From: an uncultured Alphaproteobacteria bacterium
Lineage (GTDB): Bacteria; Pseudomonadota; Alphaproteobacteria; CAAHEQ01; UBA3637
DNA length: 33,126 nt
Direction of reading: 5' to 3'
Assembly: GCA_949286245.1 (NCBI GenBank)
Contig: CASECF010000019.1
Location: forward strand, 1 to 33,126
The notes under the pieces are model-generated. The model did no database searches. It had not been told where the DNA came from and was given only the letters and a program-made list of their open reading frames with translations. Positions 21,863 to 29,594 of the stretch are shown here, piece after piece; position 1 is the stretch's first letter, and every line of letters begins with the position of its first letter. Made by a program: the position numbers and the translations under genes.

Positions 21863-22047
21863 TCTCTTGACATAATTCTTTGAGTGTTTTTACTCTTTCC
21901 AACCTTTTAGTCTCCTACAATGCTTTTCTTCTATACTTTGGCGCAAATACTATGTGATATTTTAGAGACACATGCTTCTATGATCATGTTTCCAGATCTG
22001 TTGTCCCTACTCTAGCAATAGGGTATGATGCTTTATGGATCATTGGG
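21863..22047. repeat. 185-bp tandem repeat, copy 1
   Basis: Begins TCTCTTGACATAATTC and is directly followed by a second copy at 22048. The first 143 bases differ at about nine positions between copies, and the last 40 or so have diverged more. In one forward frame both copies read a hydrophobic stretch with an MIxFPDLLS motif, interrupted by stops. That suggests the start of a decayed membrane-protein gene, perhaps a transporter. Confidence 0.75.
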
Positions 22048-22232
22048 TCTCTTGACATAATTCTTTGAGTGTTTTTACTCTTTCTGACCTTTTAGTCTCC
22101 TACAATGCTTTTCTTCTATACTTTGGCGCAAATACTATATGTTATTTTAGAGATCCACACTTCTATGATCATATTTCCAGATCTGTTGTCAGGGCTCTCC
22201 CAGTCGTATGTGATGACCTATGGATTATTTGC
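22048..22232. repeat. 185-bp tandem repeat, copy 2
   Basis: Direct repeat of 21863-22047 with no gap. In the hydrophobic forward frame it runs without a stop from about 22096 to 22257 after two stops near its start, ending in a LSTDRKF-like stretch. No ribosome site or full-length gene is present. Confidence 0.75.
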
Positions 22233-25198: not shown

Positions 25199-25750
25199 TT
25201 ATTTAAATTGATTCGGAATATCATACGTAAGTTTCTGATCCACTTTGCGAATCATCTTATTCATCATTTTTTCAAACGTTTGTTCCTTTTTCGTCAAAGA
25301 GCTTTTCATGGGAATTTCTTCCATTTCAAATCCAATGACCGATTGAGAATAAAGAGTATCCGATCCCTTTATAAAGGATAACACGATTTTATATGTCAAT
25401 CGATAAGACACATTGTCAAATACATACCAAGCCTCATTTTTTCGATCTTCCTGCGTCATATACGCCTCTTCAATCAAAATACGAGCTTTGATGGGGGAGT
25501 TTGTATTATATGCATAAAATCGATTTTTTGCCCAATCTTTTAAAGCCTGCTCGGGAGATACCGGAAGCTGATTTTCAATATGTGGCAATCGATCAAAAGA
25601 AGAAACATGAGAAACAACCTGTATCTCCCCGACATTGAGGGCAATCGGCTGTTTATCTTGTCCCGTATCCACGAAAAATGAATGTAAATCAGGCCCCTGA
25701 CAAGCAACCAGAAAACAAAATCCGATCAAAACACCCACAAATTTGCTCAC
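25199..25750 (-). CDS. Lipoprotein of unknown function
   Basis: A 183-residue protein with a short signal peptide and lipobox LVAC (Cys17). The mature part begins with an extended segment, then SPEQALKDWAKNRFYAYN, a helix-strand region with ARILIEEAYMTQE and paired strands (YVFDNVSYRLTYKIVLSF), and a basic C-terminal helix. It resembles envelope lipoproteins seen beside housekeeping genes in alphaproteobacteria, but I know no function. The GTG start overlaps the Hsp33 stop (GTGA), and comEC starts eight bases past its stop, so the three are one transcription unit. Confidence 0.85.
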   Translation of the reverse strand: MSKFVGVLIGFCFLVACQGPDLHSFFVDTGQDKQPIALNVGEIQVVSHVSSFDRLPHIENQLPVSPEQALKDWAKNRFYAYNTNSPIKARILIEEAYMTQEDRKNEAWYVFDNVSYRLTYKIVLSFIKGSDTLYSQSVIGFEMEEIPMKSSLTKKEQTFEKMMNKMIRKVDQKLTYDIPNQFK

Positions 25751-26583
25751 TCTAACTCCTCCTTTTTAAACGTGTACTCCTGCCCGCAAAATTGACAAGA
25801 AGTTATAATTTGATTATTTTGATACAATTCTTCTCTTTCAATCGGGGTCAATTTTTTTAAAAAACGGAACATTTTATCCCGATGGCAATCACAAGAGAAA
25901 AAAGGCTTTTGCTCATTAAAAATAACCAATTGATGTTCATGAAATAACCGGAATAAAATTTCTTTCGGTGTTAATGTTCCGAACAGCTCGTCATGTTGCA
26001 CACTTTTTGCCAAAATTCTGACGGTTTCCCACAAGTCATTTTGAATCTCATATGGGATCTCTTTTTTATCCGGCATTTTTTGGATCAACAAACATCTGAT
26101 GCGATCCTGATCAGAATCCGTTATGATCAAAGTCGGGATTTGAACCGATAAATCAAAATACGATTGAACCGTTTGAACAAGGGTTTCCCCCGTTAATTGA
26201 ACAATACCCTGATAAGGCTCCTGCCCGATTTGAGAAACGGAAAAAAGCAATTCTCCGGTCGGGAAAAGAGAACGAAACGATATGTCCGTATCCCAAGAAG
26301 CCGTCTGATCATAAACCGCATATCCCCGAATACGATTTTCTTTGGTGACGTCCACATAAACGGACGAAACCTTTTCTTGTCCGCGCAGTTGAAGAGCAAA
26401 ACGACCGTCATACTTTAATCCGTTCGATAAAGCAAAAGCCATAACGGCACATTCATTCAAAACCTTTTTAACCGCCTGAGGGTATTGATGTTTTTCATTT
26501 AATTCTTGAAGAGATTGATCGGCGGCAATAAAAACACCCCGAAACAATCCGCCATCTAACATAAACGATTGTATAATATCCAT
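25747..26583 (-). CDS. hslO: Redox-regulated chaperone Hsp33
   Basis: A 278-residue cytoplasmic chaperone that holds unfolding proteins after oxidative stress. The start MDIIQSFMLDGGLFRG at 26583 fits the family. An upstream in-frame extension has no ribosome site and unusual composition. The zinc-binding redox switch has all four Cys: CDC (231, 233) and CQFC (263, 266). ECAVMAFALSNGLKYDGRFALQL marks the N-terminal fold. Upstream is a near-consensus promoter, divergent from recX. Downstream it overlaps a lipoprotein gene by four bases. Confidence 0.95.
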   Translation of the reverse strand: MDIIQSFMLDGGLFRGVFIAADQSLQELNEKHQYPQAVKKVLNECAVMAFALSNGLKYDGRFALQLRGQEKVSSVYVDVTKENRIRGYAVYDQTASWDTDISFRSLFPTGELLFSVSQIGQEPYQGIVQLTGETLVQTVQSYFDLSVQIPTLIITDSDQDRIRCLLIQKMPDKKEIPYEIQNDLWETVRILAKSVQHDELFGTLTPKEILFRLFHEHQLVIFNEQKPFFSCDCHRDKMFRFLKKLTPIEREELYQNNQIITSCQFCGQEYTFKKEELE

Positions 26584-26637
26584 TTTTATTTCCAATATAA
26601 TTTGACTTGTCTTTAGCGTCTCTGCTTCATGAGAAAT

Positions 26638-26666
26638 ATTATGGAAAAAACAAAATCTCTTGTCAA
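26638..26666 (-). promoter_or_regulatory. Promoter of hsp33 operon
   Basis: On the minus strand a perfect TTGACA (26666-26661), 17 bases, then CATAAT (26643-26638). It gives a leader of about 50 bases. The -10 of the divergent recX promoter lies about 60 bases to the right. Confidence 0.8.
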
Positions 26667-26699
26667 CGTAAAAAAAGTGATCTAAACTGTCTGAACCGT

Positions 26700-26727
26700 T
26701 TGAGACTGTCAAAATCTTTTTTATAAA
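26700..26727 (+). promoter_or_regulatory. Candidate promoter of recX
   Basis: TTGAGA (26700-26705), 16 bases, TATAAA (26722-26727), each hexamer five of six. The leader is about 65 bases. No LexA-type box was recognised. Confidence 0.55.
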
Positions 26728-28634: not shown

Positions 28635-28936
28635 CTCTCTTTCGTTTCTGTCATGCAACACATTTTTTTGAAGCTGCTTATCCTGCTCAAAACATAATTT
28701 TGATATTACATTCTTAAACATGTGAACAATTATATGTCTCCAGAACAAATCAATGAACGATAAAACAAAGTAAGGACATACCATCTGATCGGCTGAGAAA
28801 CCCTTCTTTATTAAAAGCGCTTTTTAAAAATCCCCTCTATCCCCCCTCCCCCAAAAACACTTTATAGACTTAACGAATATTTAACTCTTTTTGCCTAAGA
28901 TAAATTCGGATATAGGTTAATTCTATATCTAGGGCG
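28635..28936. other. Gene-free interval after the Lpt permease gene
   Basis: About 300 bases, AT-rich, with C-runs near 28830-28855. No gene, clear terminator or repeat is visible. It leads directly into the structured element at 28937. Confidence 0.5.
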
Positions 28937-29070
28937 TCGAAAACCCTTGTGAATGTAGTCGTTTACATAACGACTTAAAATATTTATGTCGATTTCTGCC
29001 TTGGGGTGGATGTCGGCTAAATAAGGTTATCTGCCAAATAGGCCGAGCCATAACATTCAATGGTTTTCGA
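28937..29070. repeat. Structured inverted-repeat element, possible RNA
   Basis: The outer arms TCGAAAACC (28937-28945) and GGTTTTCGA (29062-29070) pair perfectly. The pairing continues with mismatches through GAATGT (28951-28956) and ACATTC near 29053-29058. Inside is a perfect hairpin, AGTCGTT-TACAT-AACGACT (28957-28975). The remaining interior is G/C-richer than its surroundings, with further short complementary runs (GGCTAAATAAGG, CCAAATAGGCC). It lies just upstream of the leader element and lipoprotein at 29131. It could be a structured 5' regulatory RNA, a small RNA or a short dispersed repeat. No known family is recognised. Confidence 0.55.
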
Positions 29071-29091
29071 ACATCCGCTCCCCTTTTATTG

Positions 29092-29127
29092 GGTGGGTTT
29101 TGTTTTAACTCAGAAGAAAGGATGTTC
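29092..29127 (+). promoter_or_regulatory. Leader element shared with the gene at 454 (copy 2)
   Basis: GGTGGGTTTTGTTTTAA (29092-29108), eight bases, then AAAGGATGTTC (29117-29127) carrying the ribosome site for ATG 29131. Both blocks are identical to those at 415-451. Confidence 0.6.
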
Positions 29128-29130
29128 AAA

Positions 29131-29553
29131 ATGAAAAAACTTTTATTTATTTTAGTAATCGGATTATGAACACCCCTGTCGATCTCTTGTGCCACCATCA
29201 TGAGAGACAACACACAATCAGTTCCCATTAAAGCCAATGTTGAGAAGGTGGATATTAAAATCTCCAATAAATCCGGCGAAGTTATTTTTGAAGGGCAAAC
29301 GCCGACAACCTTAACACTCAAAACATCGGCTCAAAGTGGTTATTTTAACCCCGAAAAATATACGATCATTGCCTCAAAAGACGGGTTTAAAACACAAACC
29401 CGTATTATAGATTGGCATGTGAGCGGCTGGTATTATGTCGGCAATTTTGTCTTCGGTGGCTTAATCGGATATCTAATTATTGATCCAATCACAGGTGATA
29501 TGTACTATCTGGATGAAGAAGTCAATCTCAATATGTCTCCTCTAAAGAAATAA
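29131..29553 (+). pseudogene. Small lipoprotein with in-frame TGA in the signal peptide
   Basis: From ATG 29131 the frame reads a signal-peptide start, MKKLLFILVIGL. It then hits TGA at 29167-29169 and continues without shift as TPLSISC-ATIMRDN. Cys at 29188-29190 fits a lipobox (SISC), and the rest reads on as a complete domain of about 120 residues. That domain resembles PEGA-type small lipoproteins: IKISNKSGEVIFEGQTPTTL and KYTIIASKDGFKTQ, then a hydrophobic GGLIGYLIIDPITGDMYYL segment. Reading only from ATG 29200 would lose the signal peptide and lipobox, and no ribosome site is there. TGA is an ordinary stop in neighbouring genes. So this is a nonsense mutation (a single TGG-to-TGA change would explain it), readthrough or a sequencing error. 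Confidence 0.8.
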
Positions 29554-29565
29554 AAGGAAAAAATA

Positions 29566-29594
29566 AAAAGGGCGATATTTTATCGCCTTTTTTT
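29566..29594 (+). terminator. Terminator of the interrupted lipoprotein gene
   Basis: GGCGATA (29571-29577), loop TTT, TATCGCC (29581-29587), then seven T. It begins about 15 bases after the stop. Confidence 0.9.

Follow-up and report, generated by a model that had tools for sequence, protein, structure and literature searches.

A TGA codon in the signal peptide of a lipoprotein gene, and a possible two-state leader RNA in front of it, in an uncultured alphaproteobacterium

Introduction

RNAs of the C4 type have been described in phage immunity and, in addition, as scattered sRNAs. The C4 antisense RNA of phages P1 and P7 (RF01695) is positioned upstream of a gene and combines a P1-P2-P3 cruciform with a segment complementary to a ribosome site; according to the available portion of PMC5320573, C4 is cut by RNase P and binds at ribosome sites. 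The same portion of PMC5320573 describes C4-like sRNAs of Acinetobacter baumannii, which are chromosomal, multicopy, related to C4, and equipped with variable loops thought to set their targets. Another multicopy RNA, sRNA-Xcc1 (RF02221), is presented in the available portion of PMC12444791 as an sRNA of Xanthomonas integron cassettes that lies upstream of symE.

Here we describe a locus at which a leader RNA resembling these systems stands before a lipoprotein gene that is interrupted by a TGA codon. The window, meaning the whole stretch of DNA that was analyzed, comprises 33,126 nucleotides and is one contig (G000:C19) of a draft genome, G000, of 1.47 Mb in 84 contigs (94% complete). The leader shares with C4 RNA the cruciform, the segment complementary to the ribosome site, and the position upstream of a gene, but it adds a conserved ∼75-nt 5′ half, which by pairing with the cruciform provides an alternative fold, and it precedes chromosomal, mainly envelope genes. 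With sRNA-Xcc1 it has in common an 87-nt outline and its multicopy nature, but it is a leader, with a start codon usually 15–45 nt past the core. Whereas the A. baumannii RNAs, as described in the available part of PMC5320573, are separate processed sRNAs, the element studied here is joined to a gene and pairs within its own locus. The gene itself resembles an ordinary early nonsense pseudogene in having a single premature stop and an intact remainder, and it differs from one by the signal-peptide position of the stop alone.

Results

The lipoprotein reading frame spans 29131–29553 on the + strand, from an ATG to a TAA (29551–29553), and this 423-base gene has a single match in G000. Its conceptual translation, MKKLLFILVIGL*TPLSISCATIM...MSPLKK*, contains one internal stop, a TGA at codon 13 (29167–29169, + strand) that falls within the signal peptide, in its hydrophobic core. 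Bacterial lipoproteins have a positively charged start, a hydrophobic core, and a lipobox motif, [LVI]-x-[AGS]-C. In the window copy the core contains the stop and the lipobox reads S-I-S-C; its −3 position is codon 17, TCG (Ser, 29179–29181, + strand), where all 11 other orthologues have Leu, and its Cys is encoded by TGT (29188–29190, + strand), as seen in both the translation and the alignment. The next in-frame ATG 3′ of the TGA (29200–29202, + strand) opens a frame of 117 codons, and a product begun there would be without the signal peptide and the lipobox Cys. Behind the gene, a terminator-like stem (29571–29587) and a run of seven T (29588–29594) can be read on the + strand. The window protein matched no family at cut-off in Pfam or NCBIfam.

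When this gene was compared with its counterpart in a congener (G001, contig C36), all 423 bases matched with no gap at 94% DNA identity, and the proteins were 97% identical over the 117 residues from ATG 29200. Orthologues from other genera and from MAGs also align along the full gene length; the 117-residue part has matches in nine of 39 genomes including G000, the two outside the family being weak. Eleven other orthologues were compared (L031, which is the congener, and L032, L033, L034, L035, L036, L037, L038, L039, L040, and L041), and 10 of them entered the protein alignment, L041 being omitted there and otherwise read in its orthologous frame. All 11 encode a Lys-containing start, a hydrophobic core, and a lipobox Cys before the conserved domain, with a lipobox of the form L-x-[SG]-C in which L17 is invariant among the 10 aligned proteins. 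In addition, a C-terminal motif, GWYxGN..GGLIG..DP, is common to the window protein and the exported orthologues. Because every other orthologue encodes the N-terminal signal segment, ATG 29200 was rejected as the ancestral start.

The initial annotation had read the locus as a genuine lipoprotein gene with an in-frame TGA, and the translation and the gapless match to the congener confirm this. The orthologues begin with a signal peptide encoded from the upstream ATG, not at 29200; the domain, the signal-peptide start, and the Cys are in frame as described, but the lipobox is not fully intact, its −3 Leu being lost. The accompanying statement that the gene shows no other decay was too strong, as this Leu-to-Ser change is a second one found in this genome alone. 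The terminator that had been proposed is present as a stem and T run in the sequence; a scan placed the stem on the − strand only.

Where the window has TGA, the congener (TTC) and a further genome, G008 (TTT), encode Phe, and the other orthologues have Phe, Ile, Val, or some hydrophobic residue aligned at this place; Trp occurs in 0 of the 11 other orthologues. From these residues, the ancestral one was most likely Phe, which is two adjacent bases away from TGA. The single-base TGG-to-TGA change suggested initially thus fails, and a Trp (TGG) ancestor was rejected. One orthologue, L041 (MAG E04__bin53, from position 2997), has seven A in place of six immediately behind its start codon, so that its frame is only 25 codons long; the conserved domain is intact downstream. 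This is a second, independent N-terminal lesion, likewise in a single draft.

G000 encodes prfB (RF2; 491 bits against a cut-off of 370), which has its own in-frame TGA within CTTTGAC, a sequence that we take to be the programmed frameshift site of RF2, and five of the 26 genes in the window end in TGA. Rfam listed 40 tRNAs in G000; among the loci read with ARAGORN there was a single tRNA-Trp(cca) and no tca anticodon or other UGA-reading tRNA. One match to tRNA-Sec exceeded the gathering threshold (47.4 versus 47) and was read by ARAGORN as tRNA-Ser(tga). In this 94% complete genome no SelB was found above cut-off, the best score (186.3 bits versus 242.25) coming from a 397-codon frame that, judging by its length, is presumably EF-Tu. 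An alternative genetic code (codes 4/25, in which UGA encodes an amino acid and RF2 is missing) was set aside because prfB is over its cut-off and TGA ends window genes, selenocysteine on the tRNA-Sec and SelB results, and a suppressor tRNA because no UGA-reading tRNA was among those read. Based on RF2 with its frameshift-type site, the TGA gene ends, and the tRNA and SelB results, there is no sign of recoding, and G000 uses TGA as a stop codon.

To G001, the window gene shows 18.0 synonymous and 5.0 nonsynonymous differences, with stop codons left out of the count (dS 0.231, dN 0.015, ratio 0.067). Five neighboring genes gave dN/dS values of 0.116, 0.105, 0.156, 0.022, and 0.093; a further gene, 25747–26712 (0.512), was dropped because its start was listed too far 5′, ahead of the conserved frame, and the gap that breaks the frame is in this extra part; in both genomes the conserved frame itself is open. 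Because the ratio is low and the 423 bases are free of gaps, most of the divergence arose under selection on the protein, and this sequence comparison shows that purifying selection acted on the gene until recently. Base changes that are nonsynonymous or create a stop number four in the 69 bases of codons 1–23 and three in the 351 bases after them (Fisher p 0.016, pooling the changes of both lineages; the one at codon 23 seems to belong to the congener, and without it the excess would be weaker). Signal peptides evolve fast in any case.

Upstream of the gene lies a structured leader RNA of ∼205 nt, the full element running from about 28926 to 29130 (+ strand), just before the start codon, as defined by DNA search, comparison of copies, and folding. 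The leader and ribosome site of the initial annotation are both present, with a leader far larger than a ribosome site alone. A DNA search with 28900–29135 returned copies elsewhere in the family genomes, several of them ending at start codons, and when read side by side these copies are one element preceding unrelated genes. The core, a cruciform resembling those of C4 and sRNA-Xcc1 followed by the next hairpin and a T run (29004–29100, + strand), matches model R1 with 85.2 bits (E 5.6e-17 in G000). R1 was built from 14 sequences (95 positions, 23 pairs), and its structure was drawn from the same sequences, in which 96.2% of cells are paired compared with 28–43% when structures are slid along the alignment. 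Five of the 23 pairs changed on both sides, compared with 1.8 in shuffles (1 of 500 shuffles as high); further pair types showed no excess (11 versus 12.6 in shuffles). In a sigma-70 scan, the sequence ahead of the leader gave no site on the + strand.

Searching the family with R1 gave 196 matches (summed over the genomes) in 38 of 43 genomes and all 13 genera, those used to build the model matching by construction, with two copies in G000 and a maximum of 31 per genome. When genomes were sampled across the class, 10 of 190 had matches, two of these within the family. Every orthologous lipoprotein locus but one carries the element (11 of 12); the exception, L039, retains its 3′ end alone. A similar remnant occurs in the window at 412–451, where the 3′ end of the leader alone stands before a lipoprotein-like gene (454–813) whose counterpart, G001:C90 (L045), has the whole element. 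The second G000 copy (G000:C2:7375–7464, L101) has no long frame that we found after it. Apart from the element, a non-coding, intergenic part of the window at ∼21865–22190, with no large frames, holds a sequence of ∼100 bases in two near-identical copies, as judged by eye. Three element copies occur in a row in L112 (593, 1036, and 1473), each followed by a similar 59-codon gene, and in L069 (1161, 1260, and 1501). Exact DNA patterns of the leader gave 0 and 0 matches in viral_contigs and none in plasmids. Among phages the leader pattern occurred in one unannotated, UNVERIFIED record of 9264 bases, L171 (MT836653.1, "Bacteriophage sp.," human feces), in which the element (576–778) precedes an autotransporter-looking frame of 890 codons; two recombinase-like frames are also present, all of these labels being given by eye.

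Start codons and products behind the element were called with a crude script for starts and signal peptides, which took the downstream ATG for L041 and for the window, where the N-termini are broken. When starts are called in this crude way, an ATG with a match of Shine-Dalgarno type lies 15–45 bases past the core in 58 of 78 copies. The downstream products are lipoprotein-like (19), pilin-like (11), otherwise signal- or membrane-like (16), other (27), or none (5), so envelope-type genes are the majority but not all. An RNA of this leader type thus recurs before many surface-protein genes across the family, and it appears undescribed; we found no description of it in the available portions of the C4 and sRNA-Xcc1 literature, including PMC2864571, PMC5320573, PMC12444791, and PMC12189769.

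Within the window leader, several segments on the + strand can pair with one another. A 5′ arm, TCGAAAACC (28937–28945), is complementary to 29062–29070, and a variable 5′ arm, TGAATGT (28950–28956), is complementary to the P3 loop (29053–29059). The segment GAACATCC (29069–29076) is complementary to the ribosome-site segment GGATGTTC (29120–29127), and its ACATCC part is complementary to the P1 strand in 29004–29013. These complements were examined in 78 of 80 model matches (L038 and L040 were omitted as near copies of L037), a set made up of best-scoring matches, chosen regions, and MAG loci rather than all 196. From it, a larger set of 74 was obtained by dropping one duplicate core or short upstream region and three unparsed elements, and 56 representatives were left after elements more than 80% alike were removed.

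Among the 56 representatives, the longest perfect complement of the P3 loop to its own upstream 125 bases had a mean of 8.50, compared with 5.33 for other loci, and 0 of 2000 label shuffles were as high; complements of at least eight bases were present in 43 of 56 own pairs compared with 1.8% of other pairs. The controls, own downstream sequence (5.70 versus 5.51, 166 of 2000 shuffles) and reversed sequence (5.59 versus 5.50, 518 of 2000), lacked such an excess. The ACATCC segment likewise matched its own upstream stretch (7.46 versus 5.74, 0 of 2000) and, more weakly, the first 45 bases downstream, which hold the ribosome site (6.00 versus 5.26, 0 of 2000); at 46–90 nt downstream there was no excess. 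Because only 15 of 56 reach eight bases, the ribosome-site complement is weak or absent in many copies.

The window leader (28926–29133) has a predicted folding energy of −67.7 kcal/mol, compared with −47.5 (sd 4.2) for shuffles (z −4.77, or −5.25 with our own script), and across 77 elements the median z is −5.9, with 73 below −2. In the lowest-energy fold predicted for the window leader, a long-range helix forms and the ribosome segment GGAUGUUC is paired to GAACAUCC; forcing the C4-like P1 fold gives −59.6. The long-range and cruciform folds share strands and are predicted to be mutually exclusive. We propose from these pairings that the leader most likely would switch between two forms, a long-range one in which the ribosome site would be hidden and a C4-like cruciform in which it would be free; the fold and the covariation are features of the sequences as found, and the switch, its trigger, and its direction are what we infer from them.

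In Rfam, one tRNA and nothing else in the window exceeded its threshold, and the leader had sub-threshold matches to sRNA-Xcc1 and C4, among others. For RF01695 the best score was 32.3 bits against a gathering threshold of 45, with none of 40 family genomes above it; for RF02221 it was 48.8 against 53, again with none of the 40 above and a sub-threshold match in 28. As the element has the paired P1-P2-P3 cruciform and the segment complementary to the downstream ribosome site while scoring below the Rfam threshold, we liken it to C4 RNA without filing it as a member. The element would work like C4 RNA and is probably related to it.

Discussion

We consider it likely that the window holds a recent nonsense change in the signal peptide of a genuine envelope-lipoprotein gene, with loss of export, behind a two-state leader that looks intact. 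Translation from ATG 29131 would halt after 12 codons at the TGA read as a stop, and a restart at ATG 29200 would give at most little, unexported protein; we infer that export is lost in this strain. The low dN/dS, the gapless gene, and the lack of the stop in orthologues make a very recent mutation, one of the options raised by the initial annotation, the best reading. A young null allele is the simplest explanation, and its main rival is an error in the draft. An artefact of assembly or base calling, or a mixed-strain consensus in a metagenome bin, would mean that the gene of the living organism is intact; the draft state of the genome (84 contigs), intact copies in relatives, and an otherwise clean gene (also expected if the protein is still made) are consistent with this. 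A single miscalled base, however, would not account for the difference from the congener codon, in which two adjacent positions are changed. Another derived change sits some ten bases further along, and no other internal stop is present; we regard such an error as rather unlikely.

The other alternatives are less probable still. The 117-codon frame and low dN/dS could also reflect conversion to a cytosolic protein translated from ATG 29200, but we hold this to be improbable, as no Shine-Dalgarno-like sequence stands immediately 5′ of that codon and the window protein belongs with orthologues that encode a signal segment and share its C-terminal motif. Readthrough or recoding of the TGA by a suppressor tRNA, selenocysteine, or an alternative code, with the lipoprotein still made, would account for the conserved sequence downstream of it; the RF2 gene with its own TGA site, the window genes ending in TGA, the tRNA and SelB results, and the lack of a conserved residue type at this position make the readthrough codon suggested earlier very improbable. 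We give equally little weight to an N-terminus that is a contingency site switched off repeatedly. L041, broken differently by its seven-A run, would fit such a site, but the two lesions among 12 loci are different and each is in a single draft assembly, the seven-A run is short, and no repeat tract exists at the TGA, where we see no evidence for the phase-variable codon that had been entertained. The recent nonsense change is accordingly the reading that we retain. By itself the TGA is an ordinary recent lesion or an artefact, and because one genome of the species was examined, it may be absent from most of the population, or in reality. It serves as a caution against inferring recoding from single draft genomes.

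The leader should be judged separately from the TGA. For the leader, the proposal that it represents a class of regulatory RNA with two states, so far undescribed, in Alphaproteobacteria with small genomes seems to us evenly poised between being right and being wrong. Such an RNA would combine an antisense cruciform of the C4/sRNA-Xcc1 type with a target-mimicking 5′ half and a copy-specific arm, in dozens of copies that would set the expression of lipoproteins, pilin-like proteins, and other products of mainly envelope genes. The variable arm (∼10 bases), which differs between copies and is matched within each, would make the pairing copy-specific. Since the 5′ half mimics the target of the cruciform, one RNA would hold antisense, decoy, and target in cis. 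Throughout the family, a relative of C4 seems to have been turned into a 5′ leader that exists in many copies and contains its own decoy. If this is true, uncultured Alphaproteobacteria of the family would have a shared post-transcriptional layer for their surface proteins.
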